From assembly GCA_003024785.1 (NCBI GenBank), contig PUQB01000293.1, forward strand, positions 112,964 to 176,963: a DNA stretch of 64,000 nucleotides, in the 5' to 3' direction. The first letter of the stretch is position 1, and each line of letters starts with the position of its first letter. A program made the translations under genes and the position numbers. Under the pieces are notes generated by a model, which was given only the letters and a program-made list of their open reading frames with translations, was not told the DNA's origin and made no database searches. Origin of the DNA: Selaginella tamariscina. Lineage: Eukaryota > Streptophyta > Lycopodiopsida > Selaginellales > Selaginellaceae. Shown here piece by piece: positions 6,131-48,879 of this stretch.

Positions 6131-6151
6131 ATATCATGCGTTCATTCAATT

Positions 6152-6475
6152 CATACTTATTATCAAAACGTGTTTGGCTCATTTTCCAAACAAATCAAAC
6201 ATGTTTGGTATTTAAAAAAGTATAATTTTTAAAATATTTAATTCGATTAATAACATTGAGACAAGGAAAAATGATATTACACATTAAACAAGTGAATGAA
6301 AGAGGACAACTAAATTTATAGTTTCTTTTCTATTTATATATTTATTATTTTATTTTTAGGGTTATAATATGATAATATTAGTAAATCTGCACAATTTTCT
6401 CAAACAATCATCCATACGTGTTTGATAAATTATTTAAAATAAACGTTTACTATTTGGCAACAAGTAGTACTGCAA
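6152..6475. repeat. Fragment related to the adjacent hAT-like element
   Basis: The left edge (catacttattatcaaaacg) and right edge (ggcaacaagtagt) are diverged versions of the termini of the element at 6949-7930, in inverted orientation to each other. Internal blocks such as 'cgtgtttgataaattattta' (about 6418) recur inverted near 6990. No target duplication could be found, so the limits are approximate. Confidence 0.45.
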
Positions 6476-6940
6476 GATTTTCATACACATTACACAATAA
6501 AAAATACATTTACCTCCAAATATTGACTTTCATGTCCTCAATATTAATTAAATTCACATGAGAGCATTTTTTGCCTTTATTTTTACTTAAGCATTCAAAT
6601 ACCCTATGTCTAAAGTCAAAACAAAAATGACATCTCAAATCCCCAAATTATTATTGTGCTTATAAGTGTAATGGATGTTCACTACCTTGTCTTTTAAAAC
6701 TCCCTTTGTTAACATGGTGCTTCTTAACTGGCTGATTTTGTCTATAACACACTTGAATTTGTTGAAGATAGGGTATGCCTTAATCAAACTTTAGCATGAA
6801 GAACTTCCTCATGTGAAGGTCATAGTGAACTTAATATATGCAGAAAGACCCATGATTCTTAGTACAAACATAACAAGATTCAAAAAATTCATGTTTCATG
6901 GTTCTGAGTAATATTGTTATAATCTTTAATAAACCACTTA

Positions 6941-7938
6941 TTTATTCACATACTTATTGTCAAACACCAAACATTTGTTCTAAATAATTTATCAAACACG
7001 TATGACACGTTTGGAAAAAATTTAAATCATTTTTGGGGAAACAACAAGAAATAAACCCTAAAGAAACTCTAAGAAATAAAAATTAATAAAAATTAAAAAA
7101 GAACCCACAAATTTAGTTGTCCTTTTCATTTATTTCCTCCTCATCCTATTCATCTTTTTAAATATTTTCAAATTTTCCTTTATCATGTACTTTCGTTATA
7201 TTTATTTAACTTGTTTTGCATTTTTAATAATCTTTCTCATTTAAGTTTTCAAATCAAGATTATCAATATTAACTTTTAAACATTTCTTACCATTTTTCTT
7301 TAATTTATCAAGCTTGAGTTAATCTACATTGTACATTCTACAATCCCTTATGCTTCTAGACTTATTAGAAGCCTCTTTAACAAATGCCTCTCTAGACCCT
7401 TTTATGTGGCTTCTTTAGCAGATACCTCTGTAGACCCTTTCACACATGCCCCTATAGACCCTTCTATATATGACTCTACAAACCCTTCCACAAATGCCCA
7501 ACTGGGTAAATATTGAGATTTTCCTTACTTTAATAGTTGACATTCTTGGAATTTGAACACCATCTACTATATTATATCTCTATTAACTTTCATGACTTCA
7601 CCTTTGGAGGATAAGTTGTACATTCACCACAGATAATTATTAATCTTTTTATAAAATCCCACTCGTATCCCTTGTATTTTCTCATTTCCAAGTACTACAC
7701 TTAATTTTTAAGCATTACTCTCAATCTCCTAACATTGCCCTTAATCTCCAAGCATTACCTTAAATTTTTAAACACAAAATTTAAAAATCTCCAAACGCTT
7801 ATAAAGAAAGAGATAAAAAAATTATAATTTCTTTAATTTACAGCAAAATACCGAACATGTTTATAAATAATTTTTGTAAATTATATGGTTTATTTACAAA
7901 ATGAACCAAACACGTTTGACAACAAGTATGTTTATTCA
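6941..7938. mobile_element. hAT-like non-autonomous DNA transposon with 8-bp target duplication
   Basis: The element itself spans 6949-7930 (982 bp). The left end reads CATACTTATTGTCAAAC, and the reverse complement of the right end reads CATACTTGTTGTCAAAC, so 16 of 17 bases match. It is flanked by an exact 8-bp direct repeat, TTTATTCA, at 6941-6948 and 7931-7938. An 8-bp duplication with CA...TG ends is typical of the hAT superfamily. No transposase frame is present. It contains a short run of degenerate direct repeats with the core 'tagaccctt' at about 7370-7500. Confidence 0.75.
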
Positions 7939-8119
7939 TTAAACTAGTAACTAAAACATTATTCCAATCCCTTTCAATTATTAAGATAGACTCAAATTCA
8001 AGATTTCACGGTCCATAAGAGTCTTATTGCATTTTCATAAACTAATTGGGCAAAAAAGTATTTACTTTTTTGTTTATGCTATAATTAAATTCACAATATA
8101 TAACATCCACCATGCTTTG

Positions 8120-8440
8120 CAAAATTTATGTCCTTGCAAACGACTAAGACCCCTATTAGTTGAAGAATTTCTTTGACAATTGAGATGCTAGCCTTGAATT
8201 ATGAGCATGGGGAATGCATACACAGTCCATGAACCTTTGGTTAAGCCATCACGTTTCGAGACCGGATAACCCCTTGGTAAACAATTGAAGGGTGGGGGAT
8301 GTTAGCCTTGATGCCTTGACATTATACATGGCTCGAGATTGCTTTCATGATCCTTATCTAAGCCTTTATGTTTTGAGACCCCCATTAGTTGGAGAACCCC
8401 TTAGTAGACAATTAAGGGGTTGGGGATACTAGCCTTGAGG
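8120..8440. repeat. Degenerate tandem repeat, unit about 130 bp
   Basis: Blocks of the type 'attagttggagaacccctt', 'gacaattaaggggttgggg' and 'tagccttga' recur in the same order about every 130 bases, in at least two full units and one partial unit. Units differ by many substitutions. No coding frame runs through the array. Confidence 0.6.
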
Positions 8441-10140
8441 TCTTAACATTATAAGGATGAAGGAATGCACACGTGGCGCATAATTACTCTCGTGACTTTT
8501 GGTTAAACCTTTTCATTACTTAGCATAAGGACTCCCATATTAAATATTATAATCCTAGTAAACCATGTCATTTTACCCACTTGACTAGTAACTAAATAGT
8601 TGAAAAGCCACACCATTTACCCATTAAACCAACTGAAACATTATTTTAATCTCTTTAATTCTTTCAATTACTAGGACAAACTCACCTCTTAATACATAAG
8701 ATTTTATTATATTTCCATAAATCAATTAAGCAAAGGGCAATTACTTTTTTAGATCCTCGTTTCAGCCATGGTTAACTTACAATGTGACAAATATGCCAAA
8801 AAAAATGTCAACAGGCTATATTGATTCCATACACATGTTTAATCATTTTAGTAAAAATGTTGAACTCATAGGGCCAATTCTTATTGATGTAGAACATTTT
8901 CAAACTTATCTCATGCATTTACAAAAGTCTTAGCGTCATACACATACCCTTTGTCCTATGGGTATTTGTGAGCATGAGGAGGTGATGAGCAATGCCATCC
9001 TTTTCATGATAAGTCTCATGTGTAATGTCATACAATGTCCTAGCCATGGGATTTAGTGTTGCAAACTAATCATCTGATAAGGTAGTTGGTAGTAGATTTC
9101 TAAGTACATCAGCAAGTGCAACTTTTAAAGTCCTTAAACTAGATGAAGAAGTTAGCTTGATAAGCTTCTCCATCTCTACTGTCTTGAAAGCCATGAGAAA
9201 AACAAAATAAATTACAACTTTGAAAGAAATAAGTACAAGTTACATAATTTAAAGGTTTATTTTAGAACTTTCATTTGAGTTATTCTTCTTAATTCATGAC
9301 AATTTGGATATGGCTCAAGAGTATAGAGACATATACTCTAAAACGTTTGTCACCCTCGTCTCCTTGTGTTCCTTTTATGTTTGAAGTACTTGTGTATGGA
9401 AAACTTAAATGTTAATTATATGTTGCGAATTAGTTTTGGAAGATGCATGCTAGTGAGACCTTGCTATTGCTATTGCCATCAACATTTATTCCATATATAC
9501 TTCCATATCCATATCCATGGGTGGGGGATTCTTGCCCACCAATGGATTTATTAACTTTGTCATGTGTATAGATCAACTAGGATAAAAAATCGAATTTTTT
9601 CACGTGTTCTCATGGGTGGTTTTGTCATATATGATGATCCATGTTCATTATTTATGGATTCTTCATCCATGTTTAGTCCTCCATTATTTTCTAAGAATGA
9701 TTTTACAAGTTATTTGTTACTTTTTTTTTTAAATTTTAATTTAACTTCTTGTTTTAACAATCTTTCTTAAATGTGTGTATATACATATGTAATTACTAAT
9801 AAAATTTCCAAATAAGTGCATTAGATTATGTATAAATGCTTATGTATAAATGAATTAATTTAGTTTCCACTTGAGATTTCATTAATTCCCACTTGGGAAT
9901 TACATCTTATTCCCACTTGAAAATGGAAAATAATCAATATAAAAATTATTTCCATATGGAAATGGAATACAAACAATAAGCATTATTATGAAAATTATTC
10001 CCATTCGAAAATAGAACATAAACAAGAAGCATTACTATAAAAATTATTCATAAGAAATAATTAAGATGATTAGATCTAGTTTAATACCGTGTTAAAACCT
10101 GATCTTGATATGGAGCTTCATTTATATAATCCCCGGGTTG
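8441..10140. other. Spacer, possible Copia gag remnant near 8900-9190
   Basis: On the minus strand about 8900-9190 gives a broken frame with a weak resemblance to Copia gag (a run starting MAFKTVEMEKLIKL). It may be the far end of the Copia element at 3150-6130, displaced by later insertions. The rest is AT-rich with no supportable gene. Confidence 0.3.
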
Positions 10141-10174
10141 ATAGCAGTAAATGAGATGTTTAGGGTTCTTAGGA

Positions 10175-11838
10175 ATGGAGTCAAATGCAGATATTCTCAA
10201 TCTAGAGATCTTGTATGTGATTTTGTGTTTAGGCCTCTCAAATGTCCATTGCTCCAATGCTAGTCATCACCCATTAGTGGAATATACTTTGGTTGACTAG
10301 CAATGCTTTGTCTCTCTTTATTAATAACTAGCATAACGTAGCACATAACAGCGTAACTCCATTATAAAATAGCCTTGAAATATATACATATAAATCATAC
10401 ATACATATGCATATATATATCCACACATACACATACATACACACTAAGAGCCATATTGAATCAATTTGCGAATAAAACTTGAAATGGCAAACAGAGTCCA
10501 TCTCTAACTCACATCACAAGGATTAGTGGTTATTCCACAATGACCACAATATTTGACACGACCGTGCCATTATACAGTGAAAGAAACATAAGAAATTATA
10601 TAACGTGTATACATAAACTCACACATATCCCGCAATGGAGAGCTCTCCCATAATCTCATCATTAACCCAATCCACAACAACCATGAGTATTCTAAGATTG
10701 ACAAAGGGTACAATCCCACCATGTAATCACTGAAACCCTGCACAATGCTGCATACATCCCTTGATACCAAAGAACAACACAGTAACAAAGCCCTCTTTAT
10801 CACCAAGATACACCAGACTCTTGCGGATTGATTCGAAATTCTCTTGAGAATTCAAGGATTTTTGGACATTTACAAGGGATTGCTAAGCAAGCGGCTTCAC
10901 ATTTCTCAGGGGAAGGATTTGCAGCAATGGAGAGCTGTCTTGGCGCTCCACCAATGCTGGCCACACCTAGCCGCTGCTACTTCCTGGCCCAATCCCTTAG
11001 CCAGAGAGTTTTCGTAACCCTACCCTTGCTTTATGTACATACACGCACTGATACGTATAGATTACCCCAGAAAAAACCTATTTTGTACACATGTGTATGG
11101 TGAAGTTGAGTGAATCCACCGTGCTAAGTCTGGTTCATTAGAGAATACACAGTTAGATTTGATGGGGAGCGATCTGACGTGAGGATAGTTACATGAGAGT
11201 AAAGTATATACATAGAAAAACAGTATATATTACAGGGGTAAGAAACCTTAGAATAGGTAGTATGAGCTGTGTGTAATGGTGATGTACATTTTCATATATA
11301 TAAAAAACTAGCCCAGATGCACTTACCCCTTAAACAAGGGCATAAGCTCCATATGTAGCTTCTCGACATCAGGTTCTAACAATATTGTAGCTTCCAATTT
11401 GATCAAACAGGTACTAAATTATATCTAATAGAGAATGAACATGTCTGTTTCTTACACACATAAACATCACGCACACCCACACCACATGTATGTATGTGTG
11501 TATACATATATACAATCTCACAAGGTGTAGTGGAGATTGTGATCATGGACAAAGAAAAAATAGCACGGGAAAGATAGCTCTGCCTAGATCAATTATACAA
11601 CAAAGGGTTCCCTTTGGAAGACTTGGAATCAGTGATATATGCCGTAGTAAAAAAATGCTACAGATTAGTAATTAAATTAGATTAATAATTAATAAACTAG
11701 TAATTAGATTAATAATTAAATATTTTCATAGCATTTTCAACTACGGATTTAATCACTGCTTGGAATATGCTTTACGAGCATTTTAATCAAGTTTAAGTGC
11801 TTCTCAACATCTGCTATCATCTCTTCCAGGTATATATC
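10175..11838 (+). pseudogene. REV7/MAD2B pseudogene copy 1, 5' part (split by a transposon)
   Basis: This is a broken copy of the HORMA-domain protein REV7 (MAD2B), accessory subunit of DNA polymerase zeta in translesion synthesis. A degenerate exon 1 starts with the same 'atggagtcaaatgcag' as the other two copies, but loses similarity after about 80 bases. The exon 3 equivalent (about 11520-11830) keeps the DNA for a GVVE...MDKEKIARER block and then meets an in-frame stop. Its splice donor (ctcttccag/gtatat) is followed directly by the PIF/Harbinger element at 11842. The exon 2 equivalent is nearly lost (trace near 11385-11410). The final exon lies beyond the transposon at 15120-15346. About 1.1 kb of unrelated sequence (10270-11370) separates exon 1 from the rest. 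Confidence 0.75.
10270..11370. other. Unassigned insert between REV7 copy 1 exons
   Basis: The stretch contains open frames on both strands (minus 10570-10806, plus 10828-11103). Their base composition is less AT-rich than the spacers, but I recognise neither product. It may be captured gene or transposon sequence. Small TA/CA repeats lie at about 10380-10445. Confidence 0.3.
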
Positions 11839-12080
11839 TTAGGGTGGTGTTACATGTGCCCGCGACCCGGGCCGGTCCGGGTGTCCACATGTAAAGCAGC
11901 CTTAAAGTGGCCACCCGGCATTTGCCCGGGCCGAGTGCACTCAGCCACGACTGGGCGGCGAGAACCACCCGGAGGGGGCCAGGTGCACCCAACCCAAATT
12001 CTGACTGTTGATTTAAAGTGACATTGATGCCAATTGTCATTATCTTAATCAATAAGATTATGTGGGATTTAGGGTGAAAT

Positions 12081-13178
12081 GTTCTTTGTTCTTGGATCAA
12101 CAGCAATAGGCAGCGACATGAGAAGGAGTCCTTTGCCAAATGTGGATTATTTTCAAGCTTCCCAAGCTTCTGTAGCTTGTACTTATGTTGAGGTAAGTTT
12201 TTTTTTTTCAAATGAGAAATGATTAATGTTTGTTTACATATAGAATAATGAAGAAGCAAATTTGCAAGGGTTTGCTTCTCAAGAGCTTGTGGTACATTTA
12301 GAGGAAGGGAAGAAAAGAAAGTTCAAGCATCGAACTGTGAAAGTTCAGGCTCTTTACGATGCAAGGAAGGGGAAAATATGGTCTTCATATGAGCTTAGTA
12401 CTTTAAACTATGGTAAACGCTTGGAGAACACAAGATACAAAGCAGGTGGTGGCAAAGAGAAGAATCGGAGATCGAATGATAAGTGGGACTCCATAGAAGC
12501 TTATTGCTTAGAGCATAAGGTTTATAGGGATGCTCTTCAACTTCAAAAGAAGTGGGAACAGATGATGACTGCGTTTAAGAAGATCTACAACTATGAAAAA
12601 AGCATTCCAAGTGGTCATTCTGACTTTTGGCGTTGAGTGTTCAAGAGAAGAAAGACCGTGGGTTACCAGCAGATTTCTATAATGATGTTTATGAGGAGAT
12701 GGTGATATGGCTAGGTGACAATAGGACATGGATCCAAAGGGTTTAACAAGTGATACATCTGGTCGGAGGTTTCGTCTCCAGTTGAAGACAACGTAATCAA
12801 TGATGATGACACATTCGGAGAGTAAATAACACTCTAGATGATGATAATGGTGAGTGTATTTTTGTTTTTTATTTCTTATTATTAACATTAATTTGTAGGT
12901 GTTCCAATAGGTCTAGTACCACCAACACGAAACAAGCTACAGAAACAGGATTAAAAAGGAAACGTGCTCCTCACTGAAGGTTTAGTTAAACAATGGAGAA
13001 GACTCAAGCAGCATTTTGTAAGTCATTGAAGGAAATGATTTCCACAAAGAAAGAAGAAATGCGTGCTCGAAAGGAAGAACAAAAAGAAGAAAACCAAGAA
13101 TTACTCAAACGAATGGAAAGCATTGAAGAACAGCACAAACACACTAATGATCTCCTTGAACGCTATCTTCAAATGTGA
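12081..13178 (+). CDS. PIF/Harbinger ORF1, Myb/SANT-like DNA-binding protein (broken)
   Basis: This is the accessory DNA-binding protein that PIF/Harbinger elements need besides the transposase. A leading segment (about 12081-12191) ends at a good donor (gag/gtaag). The next exon (about 12244-12636) carries a trihelix-like domain with the spaced aromatic residues W-SYEL, KWDSIEAYC and QKKWEQM. A stop follows 'HSDFWR'. A separate frame at 12993-13178 (61 codons) encodes a highly charged coiled coil (KEEQKEENQELLKRMES), the usual C-terminus of ORF1 proteins. Introns may join the pieces, but the stop after 'FWR' suggests a frameshift. Assignment rests on position inside the element and on the trihelix pattern. 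Confidence 0.7.
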
Positions 13179-13792
13179 ACATGGTAAGTATTTTTTTTAT
13201 TTACTTAATATCTAATTTAATCTATTACAGCTCAAGCATGGAGTAAATCATCCTCTTGTTTTAAGTTTCTGTCTATTTTGAAAGTTTAAATTTTTATTAT
13301 TTTATATGTAAATTTTTAATTATAAGCATTTCCAATAAATCCAAACTTGATGACCAGCAGCCACCAAGAAGAAGAACGTTCCAACTCCAAAAACCTGACT
13401 ACGACCTAGACAGTGGATATCGCTTTGTGGCTGTTGGTGCTGCTGATGTTGTTGTGCTTGGTGCTGCAGAGCTGGGCCTACTACGACTACCACATACCTA
13501 AATAAACACACGATTAAAAAAAAACAAGTTTTTGTATATAAGAACAGTGAACTCCAAAAACTAAACATGTAGGCTAAGAACATGATTCATAAAAACATCT
13601 CTGAATGCTCTTCTAGATAGACATTGCCCTGGTGCTCGTATTGTCTCGTAGCCTAGATCATGATCTTCTCCAGACCATTCTTCTACAAACCTCTTTGACC
13701 TGTCCAATATAATGTGTGCAAGATAGCACAACACTGCACACTATTCGATATTCGATGAGGGTCTCCACGATATATTTTCCTAGTTAGATACC

Positions 13793-14773
13793 TCATTGCA
13801 TCTTCAGCTGCCCGAATGCTCTCTCAACTGCGATCCTTGTTGATGAATGCATGTAATTATATAATGCATATTCATCATCTTCAAACTCATCACGATGTGG
13901 GAATGGTGTCAACATGCCAACTCGAAGATCATAACCTCCATCTGCAATTAAGTACTCTGGAATATTTCCAGATGGTGTCTTCACTACTGACCATTAAGTC
14001 TGGCTTTTGTTGTAACAAGTGCTTTGAAACTGCTCAATGCCCATACCCGTCTATCGTTTGCAGCCCCTGGAACACCAGCATAAACATCAAGGAACCTGGC
14101 TCTACTATCAACTATAGCTTGAACCTGCATGCTTATCTTTTGTTTATAATCTCTCCACTCTCTTGAATCGGCATGTGCTGGAAGCTCCAATGCTACATGT
14201 GTACAGTCAATTGCTCCAACACAATTCGGAAATCCATGCAACCTTTGAAATCCTTGTTTCACTGTATCTATCTCTTCTCCTTCTGGCCAGCGTAGATGTT
14301 TCAACCCTACCACTTCCACTAAAGCCTTCATGAATCTCTGGAGTATAATTACACAAGTAGCATGACTACAACCAAAGAGTGAAGCAATGCTAAGCCAAGT
14401 ATCTCCACAGCTAACCTCCTTAAAGCAATGGCAACCTGTTTTGCTACTGTGTTCCTTCTTAATTAAACCTGGAGGAGGATCCTTGCTCATTTGATCTTCA
14501 AGTAACATACAAATGTAATCGAAAAGTGTTGCTGCTTACACGAAAGAACTGACGCCATTGTTCTGGATCTTGGATCTTTACACGTTCATAAAACATGTTC
14601 CACCCTCTCATCCCACCTACAAATCTGTCTCTAAGATGCTTGCCTTGAATGTTTCCCATGATGTAATGTTGCACAAGTGAACACGTGATGCTACTTTGTG
14701 TGATTATGCCTTGAAACCCAACAAGTAACTCGTCAAAATCTTCATTATCTTCATCTTCCAAAGCTCGTTGCAT
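13793..14773 (-). pseudogene. PIF/Harbinger DDE transposase (HARBI1-like), two frameshifts
   Basis: This is the catalytic protein for cut-and-paste movement of the element. Three consecutive frames on minus (14498-14773, 13984-14508, 13793-13984) together give the DDE_Tnp_4 layout. The N-terminal part ends in WRQFFRVSSNTF, followed by LLEDQMSKDPPPG. The catalytic blocks are VGAIDCTHVAL (first D), GAANDRRVW (second D), YLIADGGYDL, and ERAFGQLK (E). The frames shift by one base inside a TTTT run near 14520, and again near 13985 just before VKTPSGNIPEYL. All acidic residues remain visible. The frameshifts indicate a recently disabled transposase, unless they are sequence errors. Confidence 0.85.
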
Positions 14774-15119
14774 TCTATAAAAATAAGTGATTTAAGTACC
14801 TCAAATGTTGCTTGCATCTACCGAATGATTGTGAGGAACACGACAATCGTTTGTCTTTGGCTTCTTGGTGTCCTCATTGCGCTCTCGCTCTGGCCACGAC
14901 CCACTCACAGCTTGCAATTTAGGGTTTAAAAAGTAATTAACCTAATTATTATTACTAATAAATTGTTGTCATGCAATGTTGTTATATTATTATTTATAAA
15001 GAATATTCTTAATTATGACATGGCAAGGGTGGTTTACGCCATTAAGGGTGCCCTAAATCTTGATTTAGGGCCGCGGGGAAAATGCTCCATGTAACACCGC
15101 CCTTAGTATATTATCTCTC

Positions 15120-15346
15120 TCTCACCTTAATTGCATATGTGTTCCTGGGAGCTTGTTACTTATTCAAAATAGCTTCCTATCTATACAAGTGTGAGTGAAT
15201 ATGTTTGGATACCGGCATAATCTGAAGCATGGCAGGATCCACCGGATATACACCTATCAAGTCTAATAAATGCGAGCCATTGGATGTGCAGCTTTACATT
15301 GAACAACCTTCACGCGGGAAAGCCATACAACATTGAGTTCCTATGG
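15120..15346 (+). pseudogene. REV7/MAD2B pseudogene copy 1, last exon
   Basis: This is the 3' part of REV7 copy 1, displaced by the PIF/Harbinger element that ends 15 bases upstream. The DNA aligns with the final exon of copy 2 (17560-17760) over its whole length. That includes the block for ...EYVW(I)PA and the C-terminal stretch around LDVQL and GKPYN. Small indels put the end out of frame, so it cannot be translated as in copy 2. Confidence 0.75.
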
Positions 15347-15349
15347 ATG

Positions 15350-16399
15350 TATTATACGTATATATACATTCCATATGGCGTAATGTCTTTCACGTTTAGG
15401 CTTCCCATCTTAGTTTATCCTTTCTTAGTAAACATTTCATAATCAATAAAGCTTTGAGGTTTATAAAAGATTAACGTTACAGACCAAAGAGATTCTTCAC
15501 CATATCATGTCTACTTCCACTAGATAAATCCAGCTTTCATAGTCTCAATAATACGTGTATAACTAAAGATATCCAGCTTAGCAGGCACATTACGTGTCTC
15601 ATTTATAAATTCAATACGTAACAAAGCGGTAAAATGTATAAATAATAGAAAAAGAAAAGAGAAGGATCCCGTTTTTAGTCGTGTGATAGATAGTTTCTCT
15701 TATACACACCATTTTAATCTACACACCTTTATATGGATAAGAATGTTGTAAACCAAGCTAATTAAACACTTTTCTTTTTCAAGTTATAAAAACATATTAC
15801 AAACTTTTGAAGTAGCACAATTCATTAAGAAAACTTTAAGAATTAATTAATAATTACTAGATAATTAATAATATTACTAGTGTTTAATTTATGTAAAATC
15901 TATGTAAATGTATGTATACATAAGTAGACATGCAAAACTATTTGGAATATATACCTTTTACAATCTCATTCATGTAAGGGTGCATATTTAAATATTCTGA
16001 TTCACGGTGGAGATTAAAGGAATATAATTTTATATAATGGTTGAAAAAATCTATTATATAAAAATCATGGTTATAAAAAAGAAATAAAATAATAAAATGT
16101 TATGTACATATTTCTGTATCTATATATAAATACATTACATTTTTATAAGCATATATATACGTGTGCATGTGTATATATATGGATATATACCATATACATA
16201 CGTAAAAATAAAATAATAAAATGTTATGTACATATTTCTGTATCTATATAATATACATTACATTTTATAAGCATATATATACGTGTGCATGTGTATATAT
16301 ATGGATATATACCATATACATACGTAAATATTTAACTACCTATATATAATTAAATATAATAAGTTTTGATTACTACATAATGAATGAGGACAGCATTAA
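15350..16399. other. AT-rich spacer
   Basis: I see no gene here. The only structure is a tandem duplication at 16082-16329, listed separately, plus scattered TA-rich tracts. Confidence 0.5.
16082..16329. repeat. Tandem duplication, two units of about 124 bp
   Basis: The block that starts 'aaataaaataataaaatg' at 16082 is repeated from about 16206, with only a few small differences. Each unit contains the same 'acgtgtgcatgtgtatatat' segment. The near-identity points to a recent event. It lies just outside the large inverted repeat. Confidence 0.85.
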
Positions 16400-16825
16400 G
16401 CATCAGGTGAAAATTCATTAAAAAATCATTTTATATAATAAATTAATTTTCACTATGCTCCCATGTATATATGTATGTAGGATCACTGATGTATATGATA
16501 TGAAAGTTTTATAATATAAATTCTAGATTTTATATTTATCATACCTAATATATAAAGGATATATAGAAAGTAATAAAAAACGGAAATCTTCCGAACTACT
16601 GGATGTCATACATGACATACAACGTGTATACATACATATTCAGCGTACTTTGTTATATATATATATATATATATAATCCATTTGTTTCTGTACATACACG
16701 AACACAAATAATTATAAATCTATTCTATTAAAACGGTTTTAATCTTCGCCCTTTATTCAATATTAACCGTTACGATCCAGCGGCTAATTACCATTAATAT
16801 TCGTTTAGGGCTCTTGAAACAGAGG

Positions 16826-16835
16826 TTTAGGGTTT
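16826..16835 (+). promoter_or_regulatory. Telo-box (tttagggttt) upstream of REV7 copy 2
   Basis: The sequence tttagggttt ends 6 bases before the ATG at 16842 and also occurs before copy 3 on the other strand. Telo-boxes (AAACCCTAA) are common in plant promoters and 5' leaders of replication, translation and cell-cycle genes. That function here is inference. Confidence 0.45.
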
Positions 16836-16841
16836 TTGGGA

Positions 16842-17760
16842 ATGGAGTCAAATGCAGGTATTCTTCAATCCAGATATGCCGCTGCTAATATTGTATGCGA
16901 TTTTCTGGAGGCTTTTGTTCATTTACTGCTATCAATCCGTGGAGTATATCCTCCAGGTAAATGAAACCATAAATATTTATATAAATGTGTGTGTATACAT
17001 ACAATTGTATGTCGTTTCAATGTTCCAATCCAGTGGGCACGTCATCCAGAACTCAAGGATCACATTCATACTGTTGTTTTCAACTTGAGGGATTGGATCA
17101 AACAGGTTATATATATCTAATAAATAATGAACACGTTTCACAAACACAAACACACAATCATTTTGTTGTGTGTTATAGTATACATTGCCCTGTACCTTTA
17201 CGAATACATATTGTGTGTTCCCCCGCACACCACATCTATGTATGTGTTTATGTGTATGTATATACAATATCACAGGGCGTAGTGGAAAAAGTTGTTGTTG
17301 TGGTCATGGACAAAGAGAAAATAGCACAGGAAAAATAAATTTTCAAGCTCCGTCTAGATCAATCGTACAACAAAGAGTTCCCTTTGGAAGACTTAGAATA
17401 TGCTTTACTAGCATTCTTTATCAAGTTAAGTGCTTCTCAACATCTGCTATCATCTCTTCCACCAGGTATTTATTATCTTTCCATTAACCTTAATATATAT
17501 GTTAGTATTCTCTCTCTCTCCCTCACACACACACACACACACACTTAATTGCATATATGCAAACTTGTTCGTGGGAGCTTGTTACTTACTCAAAATGGCT
17601 TCCTAGCGATACAAGTGTGAGTGAATATGTTTGGATACCAGCAGAATTTGAAGTATGGCAGGATCTGCCGGATATTAAGTCTATGAAAAGCAAGCCATTG
17701 GATGTGCAGCTTTACAACCTTTATGTGGGAAAGCCCTACAACGTTGACGTCCTAATATAG
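16842..17760 (+). pseudogene. REV7/MAD2B copy 2 (DNA polymerase zeta HORMA subunit), premature stop
   Basis: REV7 bridges REV3 and REV1 in translesion synthesis. Exon 1 (16842-16956) reads MESNAGILQSRYAAANIV and continues with CDFLEAF and RGVYPP, the N-terminal HORMA helix, then a gtaaat donor. Exon 2 (about 17014-17105) gives PIQWARHPELKDHIH, the family's ARHPxLxDYIH block. No AG acceptor is visible at its expected start. Exon 3 (17276-17465) gives GVVEKVVVVVMDKEKIAQEK, then an in-frame TAA at 17336-17338 just before IFKLRL. After the stop it continues in frame with FPLEDLEYALLAFFIKLS. The last exon (about 17562-17760) gives SWELVTY, WIPAEFEVWQ and LDVQLYNLYVGKPYN, then TAG. It is the best preserved of the three copies, with one stop and one doubtful splice site. 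Confidence 0.85.
17523..17545. repeat. (CA)n microsatellite in last REV7 intron, copy 2
   Basis: This is a run of about eleven CA dinucleotides. The same site in copy 3 is a (GT)20 tract at 20061-20100 on the plus strand, so the length changed after the two arms separated. Confidence 0.85.
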
Positions 17761-19844
17761 TTTCTCTCCGAAACCCTTATATATATTTTTTTCATGCGAA
17801 ATACTATACTCATCTTAACTTAACTGTAATAATGTGAACAACACCCTAATATACCGTATACATATATATCACGTATACATACATATATACGTGTATATAT
17901 ATATTACATATGCCTACATATATATCTATGACACATGGAAATTTACCATCACCTTCTCACGCTTCTATACTATAGTATATATAAGGCATATTCTAATATT
18001 GACTTTTTTTTATCATTTTTATCACGTCCACTGTTAGAATAGTCTAATACATTGCATACAGTGTGATTTTGTTCGTACGGTTGTTTTAAAAACTTAATTG
18101 CATATATTTCTCTTAAAAATATAAGTTTTGGAACTTTTGTTATTTTATTCATTATCATTTTATTCTTTCTTTGTTTTCGTTTGGTTCTTTCATCAGAATG
18201 CCTTGTCTCTTTAAAGGAGTTAGCTTTGTTTTGAATTAATAATTTTTTAAATAATTATATTGTTTGTAATTCGCATGTTGTTGTATAGGATGTATGCTGT
18301 TCAATCTTCACTATTTAGACGATTCTTTCAAAGTATGATGTAGAAAGAGAAGTAATAATAATTATAAGGTTGTATATTGTTTTTCATGTAGGAACGGGAA
18401 CTAGTAATACTCAGACGATCTATAAATGTAAATATATATATATATGTGTATAATCTGTATCTTGTTTTATTATGTACAATGGTGTTCACATACGTTTCTT
18501 ATAACTTTAAGCTGTTTACTTATGTTTTTGTGTTATGGTAAGAGAGAGAGACATGAGAGAAAAGTAATAATATATATAAGGTTGTATATCTACAGAACGA
18601 GAGTTAGAAATACTCTTAAGACAATCTACAAACATAAATGTGTGTGTATAATCTATATCTTGTTTTATTATGTACAATGGTGCCCACATATGTTTCTTAT
18701 AACTTTAAATTGTTTACTTATATTTTTGTTATGGTGTTTTACTTTTTTTTTCTTTTTTTTTTTCTTTTAATTTTTTTGCAACTTACATCCAACTTCCTAT
18801 GCTTGGTAATTTAATAGTTTTAACACACACACACGCTTATGTGAAAAATAAAATAAAAAAGTAAAACACCATAACAAAAACATAATAAACAACTTAAAGT
18901 TATAAGAAACGTATGTGAGCACCATTGTACATAATAAAACAAGATACAATTACATATACACATATATATATATATTTATGTTTGTAGATCATCTGAATAC
19001 TTTAAAAAACATATACAATCTTATATATATTATTACTTTTCTCTCCCTTTATCTCTCAAAACATAAATAAACAACTTAAAATTATAGGAAACATATATAA
19101 ACACCATTGTACGTAATAAAACAAAATATAATTATACACACAACATACACACATATATATATATTTACGTTTGTAGATTGTCTGAGGAGTACTATTAGCT
19201 CCCATTCCTGCATAAAAAATGATATACAACTTATATATATTATTAGTTCTCTTCTCTTTCTGCTCATACTTTAAAGAATCGTTTAAACAGGGGAATTGAA
19301 CAGCATACATCCTATACAACAATATGCAAACTACAAACAGTATAATTATTTAGAAAATTACTAATTCAAAATAAAATTAACTCCTTCAGAGAGACAAGGC
19401 ATTCCGATGAAGAACTAAGTGAAAACAAAAAAGAACAAAATGATAATGAATAAAATAACAAAAGTTGCAAAACTTATATTTTTAAGAGAAATATACACAA
19501 TCAAGTCTTTAAAACAATCGTACATACAAAATCACATTGTATGCAATGTATTAGACTATTCTAGCGGTGGACGTGATGTAAAAATGATAAAAAAAAGAAG
19601 TCAGCATTAGAATATGCCTTATATACTACAGTATAGAAGCATAAGAGTGATGGTAAATTTCCACGTGTTATAGATATACATGTAGGCATATGTAATATGT
19701 ATATACACATATATATGTATGTATACATGTATATATATGTATACGATGTTGTTCACATTGTTACAGTTAAGTTAAGATGAATATAGTATTTCGCATGCAA
19801 AAAATATATATAAGGTCTCCGAGAACTTACGGTCTAATATGAAA

Positions 19845-20059
19845 CTATATTAGGACCTCAACGTTGTATGGCTTTCCCACGTAAAGGTTGTAAAGCTGCA
19901 CATCCAATGGCTCGCTTTTCATAGACTTAATATCCGACGGATCCTGCCATACTTCAGATTCTGCTGGTATCTAAACATATTTACTCACACTTGTATCGCG
20001 AGGAAGCTGTTTTGAGTAAGTAACAAGCTCCCACGAACAAGTTTGCATATATGCAATTA

Positions 20060-20103
<44 letters not shown>

Positions 20104-20775
20104 AGAGAGAGAGAATACTAACATATATATTAAAGTTAATGGAAAGAACCTGGTGGAAGAGATGATAGCAGATGTTGGGAAGCACTTAATTAATAAAGAA
20201 TGCTCGTAAAGTAATTCCAAGTCTTCCAAAGGGAACTCTTTGTTGTATGATTCTAGGCGGAGCTTGAAAACATATCTTTCCCGTGCTATTTTCTCTTTGT
20301 CCATGACCACAACAGCAACTTTTTCCACTACGCCCTGTGACATTGTATACATATACATACACATAAACACATACATAGATGGGGAACACACAATATGTAT
20401 TCATAAAGGTACAGTGCAATATATTCTATAACACACAACGAAATGATTGTATGTGTTTGTGTTTGTAAGACGTGTTCATTATTTATTAGATATATATAAC
20501 CTGTTTCATCCAATCCCTCAAGTTAGAAACAACAGTATGAATGTAATCCTTGAGTTCTGGATGACGTGCCCACTGGATTGGAACATTGAAATGACATACA
20601 ATTGCATATACAATTGTATGTATACACACACATTTATATAAATATTTACGGTTTCATTTACCTGGAGGATATACTCCACGGATTGATAGCAGTAAATGAA
20701 CAAAAGCCTCCAGAAAATCGCATACAAGATTAGCAGCGGCACTCTGGATTGAAGAATACCTGCATTTGACTCCAT
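19845..20775 (-). pseudogene. REV7/MAD2B copy 3, frameshifted
   Basis: This is the inverted copy of the polymerase-zeta subunit gene. The ATG is at 20775. Exon 1 has lost one base relative to copy 2 (agagtgccg against agatatgccg), so it reads off frame after MESNAGILQSR. Exon 2 DNA encodes ARHPELKDYIH. Exon 3 keeps the frame that copy 2 lost (GVVEKVAVVVMDKEKIARER, then YVFKLRLES) but shifts near DLE, where one base is missing. The last exon keeps the C-terminal block and TAG at 19845-19847. Copies 2 and 3 are thus broken at different places and decayed independently after duplication. Confidence 0.85.
20061..20100. repeat. (GT)20 microsatellite in REV7 copy 3 intron
   Basis: A perfect dinucleotide run of 40 bases, followed by a short GA tract. 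It is homologous to the shorter CA tract at 17523-17545. Confidence 0.95.
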
Positions 20776-21212
20776 TCCCAAAAACCCTAAACCTCTGTTT
20801 CAAGAGCCCTAAACGAATATTAATGGTAATTAGCCGCTGGATCGTAACGGCTATATTGAATAAAGGGCGAAGATCCCTATGCCATTAAAAACCGTTTTAA
20901 TAGAATAGATTTATAATTATTTGTGTTCGTGTATGTATATGGATTATATATATATACAAAGTACGCTGAATATGTATGTATAACATCCAGTAGTTTGGAA
21001 GATTTCCGTTTTTTATTATTTCTATATATCCTTTATATATTAGATATAATAAATATAAAATCTAGAATTTATATTATAAAACTTTCATATTATATACATC
21101 ATTGAGCCTATATATATATGGGAGCATAGTGAAAATTAATTTATTATATAAAATGAATTTTTAATGAATTTTCACCTGATGCGTTCTCCATCACAAAAAA
21201 CACGCCTTCTAT

Positions 21213-21560
21213 TCATGTATGTTTGAATATATCATTAACGTGACATGGGCTTGCATGGCAACACAGTTCCAAAGTATGGGAGGGAGAGCCTGTGGAAGCA
21301 AGGGAGCAAAGTAGTCCACGCTCTCCACCCGACTCCTCCACAACATACCTCCAATCAGAGATTTGCATAGTCTTGTGAAGACTCACATCCCTGACATAAA
21401 TATCTTCACCACTTGGTTCCCACAAGTGCCCATATTGTGAAGTAAACAAAGCCACCCTCTAAAAAACCCACAGATCTGAGTCCCTCCTCGTCCACAAAGT
21501 CGCACACATGCATCGTACAAGGGTCCAGCTCCTCACACTCTTTGCGGAAATGCCTTGACA
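21213..21560 (-). pseudogene. Unidentified gene fragment
   Basis: On minus, an 80-codon frame (21213-21455) starts MALFTSQYGHLWEPSGEDIY and continues with DVSLHKTMQISDWRYVVEES. Base composition is balanced and looks coding, unlike the AT-rich surroundings. Upstream (21456-21560), another frame gives KECEELDPCTMHACDFVDEE. I do not recognise the family. It lies between the right inverted-repeat arm and a partial copy of that arm's outer flank, so it may be a gene piece moved during the rearrangement. Confidence 0.4.
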
Positions 21561-21975
21561 CATGACTAAGTCTTCTGACATCGGCTGCTGCTCTTTCTCC
21601 AGTCCGAGTTGCTGTGCTATCCCTTTAGCATGTTCAATGTGTGCTTTTCTTCACTCTCTCACGGTTCCGGAGATACCCACACACGCACACACACACAACA
21701 TGGATGTGTATGTGTATATATCAATATGTATGTATGCATATGTGGTTACCAGTATGGATGATAGCTGGAACATATCTTCTGAAGTTCTTGGGGCATTCTT
21801 GGGGGCCACTCTTGGGGGTAGATAGAGATCAGTCGGAAACCCAAATGGTAGTAATTTCTTTCTGCTTGCCATGAGCCACTGAACACTGAAATGAAAACCT
21901 AAAACCCCATGACATGAACATTGCGAACCATATTTAAATTAATTATTTGTGTCCATGTATGTATTAACAAAGACA

Positions 21976-22850
21976 AGTGTATATATATATATATATATAT
22001 ATAAAGAAAGAAAGTACGCTGAATACATAAGTAATGTATGACATCCAATAGTCTGGAGCATTTCCGTTTTTCTTAATATTTATTTATATATGGAAAAATT
22101 ACATTTATATTCTTGAAATTTATCATATTTACATATAATCCCTCTTTAAAAATTTTAAATTTACATATAATTTGAAAAACTTCAATCATAAACATATAAA
22201 ATATACTCTTTTAAAATAACAATAATAACTAAAAATATATTTTTAATTCCTAATATATTGCAATGAAATAATTGAAGTTTATTAAGTGTTAAATGTTAAA
22301 AAATGTCATAGTAAAAAATGAAATATTTTTTAAAATAACTATATTATTTGTGATATATATGTTTAATAGGTTTAATATATATGTTTAATAGGACTTAAAT
22401 ATAATAAATACAAATTAATTATAATTTTTAATTATTTTTTAAAAATATTTTTTTATTTTTAATTTTGAAATTTATAAGTTTTAAATTGAAGTTTGAAGGG
22501 TATATATGTAAATATAAATTTTATTTAAAATTAGTTAATTTATAATATTTTAAACATATATAAAAATATATTTTTAATTAATATTATTATTTTAAAAGTC
22601 AAAATATTATGATTAAAGTTTCTCAAGGTATATATGTAAATTTAAAACTTTTACAAGGATATATATGTAAATATAAATTTCTAGGGGTATAAATGTAATT
22701 TTACCTTTATATATTAGGTATGATAAATAGAAATCTTGAATTTATATTATAAAACTTTCATATCATATAAGCCTATATATATGGAGCATAGTGAGAAATG
22801 AATTTATTAGATAAAATAATTTATTAATGTGTTCTCCATCACAAAAAAGA
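21976..22850 (-). repeat. Partial third copy of the inverted-repeat outer flank
   Basis: The segments at about 22004-22091 and 22706-22850 match 20955-21195 of the right arm in the same orientation. Shared blocks are 'aaagtacgctgaata', 'atttccgttttt', 'tttatattataaaactttca' and 'gttctccatcacaaaaaa'. The copy is interrupted by the 614-bp insertion at 22092-22705. The matching empty site is at 21032-21040 (and inverted at 16548-16556). Confidence 0.8.
22083..22714. mobile_element. Mutator-like non-autonomous element with long terminal inverted repeats and 9-bp duplication
   Basis: The element spans 22092-22705 (614 bp). The ends are ggaaaaattacatttata and the reverse complement of ataaatgtaattttacc, and similarity between the two ends extends for roughly 100 bases. 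An exact 9-bp duplication TTTATATAT lies at 22083-22091 and 22706-22714. The uninterrupted paralogous sites at 21032-21040 and 16548-16556 have a single TTTATATAT. Long terminal repeats with a 9-bp duplication are typical of Mutator-like elements. There is no coding frame. Confidence 0.85.
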
Positions 22851-22859
22851 AAACACACC

Positions 22860-23985
22860 CAAACTCCCAAACTTTGCTCCTATTTGATTATGTAATATTA
22901 AAATACTTTGTTTATATTACATTAACATTATAAAATGTGAGCCACTTTGATAGGTAGTTATATTTACATATGTATTGTATATATGCAAATATTTATGACA
23001 TGTCGATGTATATGTATGCAATGCATAGATATAAATACATAATAATGTATATATATATATATATATATGTAATATTTAGTAAAGGTATACATACAAATAA
23101 TTTACGTGCCCTTGGAGGTTTACTGGATGATCGCCAGTAATATATAATAATAAATTAGGGTGAAAAATATAATATTAACTAATAAAAAACATACACTTAT
23201 GTACACATAAAACATAAACATTTAGGATTGAATAATATATAGTATTTAAAACACTATATATAGAGGGAAATTATATATATATACATAATAGTAATTAAAA
23301 TTATAATAATTAAAATATAATTTTAAGATTAAAATCTTATGAAAATAAATATACTTCTATTACAATAATTTTAAAGAAAAGAGTTAAATTATCACACAGA
23401 GGAGAGAGTTAATTTAAGTTGTAATACTTAACAAATTAAAGAGATTGGGATTAAATTATCACGCACACAGTAACCTAAAATAAAGAAAGTTAAGTTATCA
23501 CATACATATATTAATTTGAGAGAGTTAAAAGAAAGAAATTATCACATTTATGCATACACATTTATAAAGTAATTTAAAATTTTATATTATTAAATTAAAT
23601 CATTGTTAATTTATAATAAGTTAATAAATTATTATTATTATTGTTATTGTTAATAAAGTTAATAACAACTTAAATTATTATGAATTTATTGTTATTGTTA
23701 TAAATTAAGTTATTATAATAACAATAGTTAATATTGTTAAAAATTGTATTGTACTGTTAACCCTGGACCTATTAGATTTCTTCTTTATATATGAATTAGA
23801 AAACTTTTTATATGTTTAAAAGAATCCCTTAACGAGATTAATACATTCAAAAAAACATACAGAATCAAATAACGTCGGTTTTAATTAAACTACGAATCGC
23901 GATCATGGTTACCTTCTCTTTTCTTCTCCAAAACATAGTAAAACACATGGATTAATATCTCTTAAAAAAAATTAAGTTTTACATT
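22860..23985. other. AT-rich spacer
   Basis: Very AT-rich sequence with (TA)n at 23049-23068 and irregular TTATTA/TAATAA runs at 23580-23740. I see no gene. Confidence 0.5.
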
Positions 23986-24007
23986 GCAGTTCGATTATAA
24001 ACTTACT

Positions 24008-24127
24008 GGGGGAGCAAGATATGAATCCATGGTCGCTTGCCTTTTCTTCTTACTACTTGATGGCTCGTCTTCTCCGTCACTTCCAGAAAGCTTAGGCCAT
24101 GATCTCCTGGCTGAAGATGCACTCTGC
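24008..24127 (-). other. Isolated exon-like segment
   Basis: On minus, a segment of about 117 bases is bounded by a good acceptor (ttgttttgcag) and a good donor (gtaagt). It reads SASSARRSWPKLSGSDGEDE, then PSSSKKKRQATMDSYLAPP. The basic cluster followed by a TMDSYL-type motif resembles the linker before the body of some hAT/BED transposases or nuclear proteins. No neighbouring exon could be identified. It may be a gene or transposon remnant. Confidence 0.35.
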
Positions 24128-24449
24128 AAAACAAGTATCGATTGTATATATATACGGATTAATAATTAAATTAAATTAGTAATTAATAAATTAATAATTA
24201 AATTAGTGGACGAGATTAAGACTGCCATACGAATGTCTCCAATCTTCAGGTTTGTTTTGTAAAAATGTGTCTGTATATGTAAGTGTATATTTATGTTGAG
24301 ATATATAGAGAGAGTAAAGAACATATCTCTCTCATATATCTATAGAGTGATTAAATTCCTAGTCGAAAAATGTTACAGAAATGTTTAATTCAATTTCCAT
24401 ATCCCAGCTTGTTAGTCATGCAAATCTAGAACAGAGATGATGAACAGAG

Positions 24450-25860
24450 TGTTAGAACCTGAATTCTTGGAGAGAAGTACACACGTAAATGACCTTGCCA
24501 AGGTAAGTCATCCGGGCTAGTTTATTATATTTATATAACTGTACAGCTGTATTCCAGCTAATACATATTATTCCTGGTAAGCTCTTCTACCTATATATTT
24601 TCTGAGTATCCTCTATCTTCTGCTAACACGTATAGCTATATCTGCAGTCTCAACACTCCCCTCAAATCTAACTGCTTACTTCTAAGATCCAAATTAAACC
24701 TAATGATTTCGTGTGTTTGTAATGGAAACCTGCAGTGAGTGACTTGTGAGAATATCGGCTGTCATTTCTTCTGTGTTCCGATGTAGCAGTTGGATTTGTT
24801 TTTGTCCTTGACTATTTCCCTTATAAAATGGTGATACATTTCAATATGTTTGGTGCATGCATGCAAAATAGGGTTAGCCAATAATGCAAGAGCAGATCAG
24901 TTATTATTATATATAACAGTTGGATCTGGAATCGTACAAACCAATGTTAGTAATAAGCTTACGTACCCATATTGCTTCCTTGACTATAGAGGTGATTACA
25001 TTATATTCGGCTTCACATGTGATAAAGCTACAGTGGCTTGTTTCTTGCATCCCCAGCTTATAGCACCTCCACAAAATAAGTAACACCAACCAGTCTTGGA
25101 CCTTCGATCATCCAAATCTCGCTAAGTCTACATCCATGAAACCTATGATATTGCCACCCCTGTTTGCAGAATACTTGATAGCAAAGCTATTAATAAAAGC
25201 TAGATAGCGGGGCCTATATCAGGTCTTGATGCAGTCATCAAATACATTAAGCTCCCTACAACACTCTGATATGGTATATGTGCCATTAATGCTCTCTCCC
25301 CCTCAGCACTTGGAGACATATCTCTATTTAATTTACCAAGTATTGCAGGAGTAATGGTTCGTCTAGCAGTATAATACGATTTATATTTATCAGTAAAGAT
25401 GAAATAAATTTGTGCTGGTGCAGATATACATGTCTATGTTTCTATCCCTAATGATTTGCAAGCCAAGGCAATAAGTGAGTTTCCTAAGTCAGTCATCTTA
25501 AATGCAGTTGTAAACTTTGTTTAATGTCGTTTAGAATTTCCTTATGACAAGCTATTATTAAATCATCAACATATATAGCAAAGAAAGTATCCAAGGAATG
25601 AGAGTAACTGCTCGGATAAGGCCATAAAGATTGTTGTGTAGGAACCATAGCTGCAAACTTTGCTGAGAAATACTCTAACATCTTTTTTTTGGAGTCCAAG
25701 GCCACTTAGTCCACATAGAATATCAGTAGTTGGGTAGATTCTACATTTGAAATAGAAGTTAAGTGGTCGCCTTGGCAAATACACTCTTCCCACTGCTCCT
25801 GTATATCACCAGAAGTTTGTGAAGTTGATGTTGATGCAAATATATCAACATAAGAATATT
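24450..25860 (-). mobile_element. Ty1/Copia retrotransposon fragment with 3' LTR
   Basis: A candidate LTR occupies 24450-24655. Read on minus, it starts TGTTGAGACTGCAG and ends GGTTCTAACA, with TG...CA ends. It is preceded by a purine-rich tract (gatttgaggggag, 24656-24668 on plus as the complement), as expected for a polypurine tract. Further right on minus, RNase H is seen at 24907-25089 (CEAEYN, KEAIWVRKL). Reverse transcriptase is seen at about 25493-25705 with FFAIYVDDLIIAC, the Copia YVDD catalytic motif. The frames are broken, and gag, integrase and the 5' LTR are missing. The RNase H end matches the older Copia copy at 3150-3640. Confidence 0.8.
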
Positions 25861-28286: not shown

Positions 28287-28920
28287 TTAACGGAGAAGCT
28301 TTCTTGGCATAATCCTTGACATACCGCGGTAATAACCAGCCATGCCCAAGAAACTCCGTAACTCTTCTGCATTGCTAGGAACTGGCCATTGCTCCACCAC
28401 TGCCACCTTCTGTGGATCAGTCTTCACTCCACTTGGCGTCACAATGTGACCCAAATACTCCACTTTGCACTGAGCAAATGCACATTTGCTCTTCTTTGCA
28501 TAGAGCTTGTTCTCCCTCAACAACTGAAGAACTCTTCGCAAATGCTGCACATGCTCCTTCATATTCTTACTGTAAATAAGAATATCGTTGAGGAAGATCT
28601 CCACAAAGTCGTGCAAGTAGTCACCAAACACCTCAGTCGTCAACCGAGTGAATGTGACTGGGGCATTTGTTAAGCCGAATGGCATAACAGTGAACTCGAA
28701 ATGCCCAACTATCTTGGTGAACACTCTGGCTCCACCGAGATGATCCATGATAGTATCCACACATGGCATGGGCATCCTGTCCTTCACTGTTTGCTTGTTG
28801 AGAGCTCTGTAGTCTATGCACATCCTCATGGTGCCATTTCTTCTGACAAGCAATACTGGTGCACCAAATGGAGACTTGCTCAGTTATGAAGCCATATTCC
28901 AATAGCTCTCTTGCTTCTTA
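28287..28920 (-). pseudogene. Gypsy reverse transcriptase remnant, catalytic Asp changed
   Basis: Minus frame of 188 codons with the Gypsy RT blocks in order: MRMCIDYRALNKQTVKDRMP, FEFTVMPFGLTNAP, FLNDILIYS, KLYAKKSKCAF, VEYLGHIVTPSGV and AEELRSFLGMAGYYR. The catalytic motif, normally FIDDILIYS or FLDDILIYS, reads FLND, so the first of the paired aspartates is asparagine. RNase H-like sequence continues down to about 27900 with stops. The element cannot make an active RT from this copy. Confidence 0.85.
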
Positions 28921-40203: not shown

Positions 40204-41064
40204 TTGAGAATTCAACACTTAGACAGATTGTGAAACAGGTTTTTCTTTGCTTAATGACAACGCACAAGTATTAAGTGCCTAAGCCTGGTTAACTTTTTGA
40301 TCATGTGTTAAAGTATAATACAGAGATGTTGTTGCTGTCACAACACTAACGTGTCTTTCTGCGGATCAATATAGATATTCTTTTCTTACTTTCCTAGTGG
40401 ACACGTGTCATACTCAAGCTAACTAATACTATTTATTGTATGTCGAAGGGTCAAATCCGAGTCAAGTTAACGAGAACTATTAAGCTGATTTAGGTCAACT
40501 GTCATCGTTATAAACTTTTTCAGGTTCATCATGGCAGTTTGTTAATTAAGATAAATGAGGTTGTTTAGGTACTCCAAAAGATTCATTGCAAATCTCAAAC
40601 TAATTTCTTTCTATTCTTGAGGTTCTCGATAAATTTTTTCGTGTTCATAAACTAGAGTTGACCCATATTGACCAATGTCAACCCTACTCTATCCATTCGT
40701 CAGTGAGAGTCAACGATCGTTAAAGAAAATCCAGTCAACGGTCATTAACATTTAAAGGTTATATTTTGACCCCAGACTCGAATCATACAGGAGTTAACGG
40801 TTAACTTGACTTATTAACCATGTACATAAATACACACATTATGATCTATATGTATATATATTAGACACGATGTATTTGAAATATGTTAACATTACGGAGG
40901 GGAGCTCTAACGAAAGTAGTTGCCATAACTATATTCTTTCTCTATACTACAAACACACAACTGTACGTTTCAACTAATTCTTTTATATTATATTGGTTTC
41001 ATAGAAAACTCGTAGCACAAATGTGTTATACAAATGTATAATAGCACTACTGTTGGAGGATATA

Positions 41065-41122
<58 letters not shown>

Positions 41123-45120: not shown

Positions 45121-45170
45121 GAAGTATTAAACTAGGGCTCTTGACGAGGCTCATTCTTGTTGCAGCAGTG

Positions 45171-45695
45171 ATGGTGACATTCAGGGTAGCGGGGGACAAG
45201 GATCCGCAGCTCATCAGCGTGCGGGCTTACAAGAGGAGGATCACTACCTGGAATACTTGAGCAAGAATGTTGCTCCTTCAAGGTACGAGCTTTGACAGGC
45301 AGGGCTTCGAGGCCATGAGCAACGGCTTCGTCTCCGGAATCGTCCGTGCCTACATTCCGCATCACAATGTCGTCATCGGCCCCGACGGCGATCATGGTCC
45401 AATTTGGCCTTTTCGTGAATGGAAACGCGGATGCCATGAGCTCCGTTTTCGTGAATGACCAGGGCAAGAAGCAGCTCATTGTCTCTCAGGTAAAAATTGT
45501 GTGTTTGGTGTGTGGTTCTTACAAAGATATAAATGTTAGGCTGCGGGCTTACATCGGATATGAGTGTCCAGCTGAAGCAGAATGTCAAGGATGAAGCAAT
45601 CTGTGAGTGGGTTTTACCCATGACGAAGAATGATGTTGTTGTTGGCAGTGTTGTGCTCATGGCCATCAAGGACTACTTTGACTACTAGTAAGTTG

Positions 45696-45726
<31 letters not shown>

Positions 45727-47359: not shown

Positions 47360-47393
<34 letters not shown>

Positions 47394-48870: not shown

Positions 48871-48879
48871 TTAAACGTG

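Follow-up and report, generated by a model that had tools for sequence, protein, structure and literature searches.

REV7 pseudogene copies arranged as a palindrome in the lycophyte Selaginella tamariscina

Background

When a conserved single-copy gene gives rise to duplicated, non-processed pseudogenes, these keep their introns, lose splice sites, accumulate frameshifts and display a ratio of nonsynonymous to synonymous substitutions (dN/dS) of about 1 or above. The same features are found at the locus described here, which lies in a stretch of 64,000 nt of Selaginella tamariscina DNA (contig C608, positions 112964-176963; this whole stretch is called the window) and contains three copies resembling REV7 (MAD2B), the HORMA subunit of polymerase zeta. 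The locus is an ordinary pseudogene cluster, a known kind of thing, in uncommon palindromic form: two copies constitute a palindrome with almost no spacer and with signs of arm-to-arm conversion, which sets them apart from ordinary duplicated pseudogenes.

Inverted arms are also known from mammalian X and Y chromosome palindromes with gene conversion, where arm identity exceeds 99% (excerpt of PMC8981503). Arms of the present palindrome are 91.5% and 94.2% identical and fall below this value. In the willow W palindrome, homogenisation is confined to part of the arm (excerpt of PMC7023750), as it seems to be here. Unlike in these sex-chromosome palindromes, arms are only about 2.4 kb long, their contents are dead and a link to a sex chromosome is not known.

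Inverted duplication has further been described as an origin of plant small-RNA loci (excerpt of PMC3237417). Examples are the maize Teosinte Pollen Drive hairpin (excerpt of PMC11390486) and ARR17/PI inverted repeats of poplar and willow (excerpt of PMC13064059). These loci share with ours an inverted duplicate of a protein gene that has 21-mers in common with a surviving paralogue. The differences are that the present locus is known from DNA alone, that its target would be a DNA-repair gene and that the similarity is patchy.

Plant REV7 is represented by Arabidopsis At1g16590 (excerpt of PMC6794406). The HORMA protein sequence is alike in Selaginella; full exon structure is kept in a copy on contig C549, not in the window copies. 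In the literature, as far as the retrieved excerpts go, nothing joining REV7, HORMA and Selaginella was found, and for REV7/MAD2B together with pseudogene only work on a human partner protein was retrieved.

Palindromic arrangement of copies 2 and 3

Very probably, copies 2 and 3 represent the two arms of a palindrome formed from a dead REV7, copy 1 is a separate pseudogene, and the working gene most probably resides on C549. To begin with identity of the copies, the palindrome arms and the C549 copy were read together into a composite of 201 aa. It matches residues 13-197 of human MAD2B/REV7 with E 2e-33 and MAD2A with E 8e-12 only, being thus closer to MAD2B than to MAD2, and reaches 29.4 bits against the Pfam HORMA domain PF02301 (cut-off 24). 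The window copies match the composite exon by exon with 69-87% identity, which excludes chance resemblance. Three REV7/MAD2B-like copies, none of them intact, are therefore present as the preliminary description had it. None can be spliced and read through normally: the arms have lost two acceptors and contain stops and frameshifts, and copy 1 is truncated and interrupted.

When the region 16400-21182 was compared with its own reverse complement by blastn, a match of 4999 columns was obtained (84.2% identity including gaps). This single palindrome has copy 2 in one arm and copy 3, in mirror image, in the other (Table 1), a point that had been missed, and the ungapped identity of the arms is 91.5% over 2271 columns. 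The outer flank and inner arm were then used as queries against the whole assembly (300,702,823 bases in 1391 contigs). Eight out of ten matches to the outer flank fall at the REV7 locus on C608 or on a second contig, C269, and the other two are short; matches to the inner arm are mostly outside the locus (41 of 45), all of these being short, and long ones are confined to C608 and C269. A dispersed foldback transposon with long terminal inverted repeats is ruled out by this distribution.

The S. tamariscina assembly, made from PacBio reads with Falcon, amounts to 300.73 Mb for a genome of 150 Mb (excerpt of PMC8558194). Since this is about twice the genome size, both haplotypes seem to have been assembled. 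C269 is probably the other haplotype of the window locus: it matches window 40889-57840 in six blocks of conserved order and 83-96% identity (at least 90% in four of the six), and much of window 1-34681 in opposite orientation. It might also be a diverged segmental duplicate. The apparent inversion of about 31-35 kb (window 1-34681 versus C269:347567-378171) contains the REV7 locus, and window 40889-57840 keeps the same orientation on both contigs.

C269 contains the same inverted pair, at 360081-361035 and 365543-366555. Judged by flanks, copy 2 corresponds to the latter and copy 3 to the former. Its palindrome centre is longer by about 2.4 kb (approximately 362129-364511), mostly inverted itself (85%) and without long match elsewhere, so that either the window haplotype lost 2.4 kb or C269 gained it. 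A repeat of about 0.37 kb in this C269 spacer (363083-363451) recurs nearby with about 74-75% identity (window 6210-6541).

Could the palindrome be a missed-adapter artefact of PacBio sequencing, copy 3 having no real existence? The sequencing technology makes the question legitimate, as does an inverted repeat on C549, 99.8% identical, that looks artefactual in this way or else very recently formed (see below). Nevertheless, the arms differ in 8.5% of ungapped columns, a matching palindrome exists on C269, and sites of the outer arm group by flank and not by contig. We regard the artefact as scarcely conceivable.

Shared and private lesions of the arms

Lesions of four arms, i.e. copies 2 and 3 and both C269 arms, were scored against the C549 copy. 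In all four the AG ahead of exon 2 is missing, as are the first codons of that exon. The intron-3 acceptor is missing from all of them too: no AG is found in the 60 nt preceding exon 4. Exon-4 deletions of 9 bp and 7 bp are likewise common to the four arms. On the contrary, the TAA at 17336 in copy 2 and the one-base shifts of copy 3, that near 20742 included, are each confined to a single arm of a single haplotype. Because lost acceptors and exon-4 deletions are present in every arm, the parent gene was most simply already dead before the inverted duplication. It would be less simple to suppose that the lesions spread between arms by conversion after duplication, a possibility which counts against our reading.

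These data confirm several details of the preliminary description and alter its interpretation. The TAA of copy 2 is present at 17336-17338, no AG exists between its exon-1 donor and exon-2 remnant, copy 3 is open where copy 2 has its TAA, and copy 2 is open at the exon-1 shift of copy 3. Copy 3 had been credited with two one-base shifts; the exon-1 shift near 20742 is there, yet the lesions were undercounted, as its exon 3 has lost one base at two places and 3 bp at another, and a TAG interrupts exon 4. Also overlooked were the loss of the exon-2 acceptor in copy 3, as in copy 2, and that of the intron-3 acceptor in both. The proposal that the copies decayed separately does not agree with the two lost acceptors and the 9-bp and 7-bp deletions shared by copies 2 and 3 and both C269 arms; later lesions alone are separate. 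Three independent losses of a functional gene are ruled out by the shared lesions. A processed (retro) pseudogene is ruled out too, for introns 1-3 are kept in the arms.

Constraint and signs of gene conversion

Among the four arms, dN/dS ranges from 0.76 to 3.37 (all six pairs, each resting on 11-26 differing sites only), and an excess of third-position changes is seen in no pair. Comparison of the C549 copy with the arms gives dN/dS of 0.18-0.34 in all four cases. Third-position excess was tested for three arms: it is evident against the C269 arm a_269 (6, 5 and 18 changes at the three codon positions, P=0.0014) and against copy 3 (P=0.0036), and unclear against copy 2 (P=0.066). Between copies 2 and 3, exons are 93.5-98.2% and introns 95.1-98.7% identical, with exon bounds off by one to few bases, so exons are no better kept than introns. 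Neither measure indicates purifying selection on exons of the four arms. The inner arm, at 80.7-89.6%, is below both exons and introns; we put this down, without proof, to AT-rich repeats, the inner third of the arms being AT-rich and poorly aligned.

It had also been suggested that one copy is functional and misread, its lesions being sequencing errors. One-base indel differences are indeed frequent in this assembly. A misread TAA or shift, however, cannot account for two acceptors missing from all four arms, nor for the 7-bp deletion that they share; the TAA results from a base substitution that has others beside it, and the exons show no constraint. This explanation is thus highly improbable.

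To see how the arms are related, we examined the 58 sites that split them two to two. The orthologous arms agree at 27, arms of the same haplotype at 21, and 10 follow neither pattern. The distribution along the arm is uneven: in the outer part, from flank to intron 3, 12 of 13 sites are orthologous, none is haplotype-wise and one is cross, whereas exon 4 and the next stretch have 6 orthologous, 17 haplotype-wise and 4 cross sites out of 27 (Fisher P=0.0001, with a border picked after the pattern had been seen). For the inner AT-rich part the numbers are 9, 4 and 5 (orthologous, haplotype-wise, neither) and, owing to poor alignment, they are not relied on. Gene conversion between arms within each haplotype, from exon 4 inward, seems to explain this pattern, in which variants are shared by arms of one haplotype at 17 of 27 sites in one part and at 0 of 13 in the other, the border between the parts being post hoc.

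Copy 1 and its insertions

Copy 1 is a separate REV7 fragment. It keeps the 3' flank found at C549 (pieces over window 15139-15964), which the palindrome does not have, and it retains the exon-4 segments deleted in the palindrome, so it was not derived from the latter. Truncation and splitting by a transposon, both reported previously, are correct, with the precision that the 3.26-kb element is located in intron 3 and not in an exon; exon 3 has an additional insert of 129 bp (Table 1). From its TTA target duplication and DDE_Tnp_4 transposase we take the larger element to be of PIF/Harbinger type, and the smaller is presumably a hAT-like miniature inverted-repeat transposable element. C269 shows empty sites for both insertions. 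Other changes of copy 1, for instance a TAG in exon 3, are common to both haplotypes.

On C269, some 7 kb separate exon 1 of copy 1 from exons 3 and 4, and exon 1 runs on the other strand. The cause is a reversal, relative to adjoining sequence, of the segment that matches window 4132-10227. This segment of about 6 kb (C269:368566-375495) has one breakpoint within copy 1. By eye, a short inverted piece like the exon-1 end (window 10120-10157) adjoins the copy 1 start in both haplotypes.

Table 1. Features of the REV7 locus in the window (window positions)
Feature	Position	Size	Strand	Description
Palindrome (REV7 pseudogene and flanks, inverted duplication)	16400-21182	4.78 kb		Axis near 18791, unpaired centre ~18761-18847 (<100 bases); from blastn self-match and arm alignment
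Copy 2, left arm	16842-17754		+	Exon 1 16842-16956; exon-2 remnant ~17016-17105; exon 3 ~17276-17465 with TAA 17336-17338; exon-4 remnant ~17566-17754
Copy 3, right arm	19851-20775		-	Exon 1 20775-20662; exon-2 remnant ~20590-20501; exon 3 ~20334-20150; exon-4 remnant ~20039-19851
Extra partial copies of palindrome outer flank	21940-22091, 22704-22829		-	From self-match
Copy 1, separate REV7 fragment	10154-15336		+	Exon-1 start 10154-10227, exon-2 tail, exon 3, exon 4 up to 15336
DNA transposon in copy 1 intron 3	11842-15102	3.26 kb		TTA target duplication; 15-bp terminal repeats (14/15 alike)
DDE_Tnp_4 transposase piece in this transposon	13984-14535		-	PF13359, E 2e-10
Insert in copy 1 exon 3	11630-11758	129 bp		8-bp target duplication CTTGGAAT; terminal repeats CAGTGAT

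Candidate working REV7

We wondered if an intact REV7 exists elsewhere. A protein search of the whole assembly, in which all 21 candidates were scored (26 matches), found REV7-like exons only on C608, C269, C549 and C560. In a DNA search (40 of 230 candidates scored), matches outside these four contigs are restricted to the CA repeat of the query. The C560 copy is badly decayed, with 8 in-frame stops and poor alignment. The sole near-complete REV7 found is C549:848160-848990, in which the splice sites are complete and the exon-2 start as well as a proper stop are present. The genome-wide search proposed earlier thus gave no fully open gene but one near-complete copy.

One-base indels are common in the assembly and divergence of the C549 copy is constraint-like, so that this copy is probably the working REV7. 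Several observations nevertheless speak against the reading given here, in addition to the limits stated with the arm comparisons. Exon 3 of the C549 copy has two one-base deletions, hence the assembly yielded no REV7 that is fully open. At about 0.9 indels per kb, as in the arms of the C549 repeat described below, at least two in 615 bp have P=0.11, which leaves the error explanation plausible and unproven. At the rate of a transporter gene in the window (8 one- or two-base indels) P is 0.41, although this yardstick may itself be decaying: its 8 codon changes are 5 silent and 3 not (501 codons). Coding indels between haplotypes are absent from a UGT exon and from a DUF4419 stretch of 564 bp. 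The aligned codons of the C549 copy are without in-frame stop, but so are those of arm a_269, and the absence of stops alone decides nothing. A second copy of the C549 gene was found neither by the protein search nor among the 40 scored candidates of the DNA search. Its flanks, searched for the other haplotype of C549, give mixed results: the immediate upstream flank has partial matches of 79-82% on C291.

Other surroundings of the candidate gene are as follows. The downstream flank recurs at another place on C549 with 86% identity; for C549:855001-859000 the matches are to C878 (89%), to C482 (94%, over 0.66 kb) and, more weakly, to C1050 and C591; and for C549:840001-844000 no long second match was found among 40 of 83 candidates scored. 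Six kb from the gene lies an inverted repeat (C549:854999-858270 and 858958-862229) with 3.27-kb arms, 99.8% alike, and a spacer of 0.69 kb. It represents an artefact of the reads or else a palindrome of very recent origin. Between its arms there are 1 substitution and 6 one-base indels, and four of these indels fall in runs of at least three equal bases; such indel-dominated differences are a sequencing-error pattern. Across seven blocks compared between haplotypes, the DUF4419 block has no indel, the UGT block has one (upstream of the likely start codon) and the other five have 3-7 one- or two-base indels each.

The transporter gene mentioned above (window 53429-55150, nodulin-like/NFD4) contains frame shifts of one and two bases, whose positions differ between the haplotypes. 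DUF4419 genes or fragments occur in tandem at window 45976-48134, where the haplotypes are identical over 47568-48131.

If the C549 copy were a pseudogene as well, REV7 would be truly lost or dying and polymerase zeta would be without its HORMA subunit. Every REV7-like place found is broken, and the two deletions in C549 exon 3 fit this possibility. Against it stand the constraint-like substitutions and complete splice sites of the C549 copy, the commonness of one-base indels, sequence that the assembly may lack, and REV3_N and polymerase-B matches on one strand of C869, according to which REV3, the catalytic partner subunit, appears to be present. We consider such a loss unlikely. A genome search with the Pfam HORMA profile found only a gene on C476, without REV7 exons, which reads to us like ASY1; as this search missed all REV7 exons, it is uninformative on REV7 copy number. 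The view that a DNA-repair gene is unusually being lost here at a single site does not apply: the locus consists of pseudogene duplicates, a near-complete REV7 is located on C549 and REV3 is apparently present.

Possible hairpin RNA

The palindrome might alternatively be a long-hairpin RNA locus, whose putative read-through REV7 hairpin would be diced to small RNAs silencing the real REV7. The 2.4-kb arms pair nearly continuously and the palindrome is present in both haplotypes. A stretch of 511 nt at the axis folds at -198.9 kcal/mol (z -26, none of 100 shuffles as good); any palindrome folds likewise, so this z value is no evidence of function. Of 2213 complex 21-mers of copy 2, 448 pair perfectly with copy 3, and 67 of these also occur in the C549 gene span. 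The maize, poplar and willow loci cited above are precedents. On the other hand, C269 arms share only 24 perfectly paired 21-mers with the C549 gene span, and no sign of selection on the arms is seen. Known structured RNA was rejected, as Rfam gave no match at gathering score in window 9000-25000. On balance, we judge a silencing hairpin quite improbable. Slightly less probable still is its extension, in which a putative hairpin RNA gene would be kept in both haplotypes of this resurrection lycophyte and its small RNAs would tune the C549 REV7, so that RNA silencing would set translesion synthesis by polymerase zeta.

Another element of the window is a retrotransposon reverse-transcriptase fragment (PF00078) at 28287-28883 on the minus strand.

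Conclusions

Returning to a palindrome of dead copies, we propose the following course of events. A REV7 pseudogene already devoid of two splice acceptors would have undergone inverted duplication, giving rise to copies 2 and 3. The palindrome codes for no working protein, and its arms diverge without visible constraint. Exon 4 and the following stretch may have been copied from arm to arm within each haplotype, and one haplotype has lost, or the other gained, the central 2.4 kb. Two DNA transposons have entered the separate pseudogene copy 1 in one haplotype. Working REV7 is most probably a single copy, that on C549.

If the hairpin did act as outlined above, translesion synthesis in a plant that tolerates desiccation would be linked with RNA silencing. 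With the palindrome available in two haplotype versions, conversion and change of the centre can be read from it directly. As for REV7 in S. tamariscina, this site holds dead copies of the gene and not a DNA-repair gene being lost, which corrects a misleading reading of the locus.

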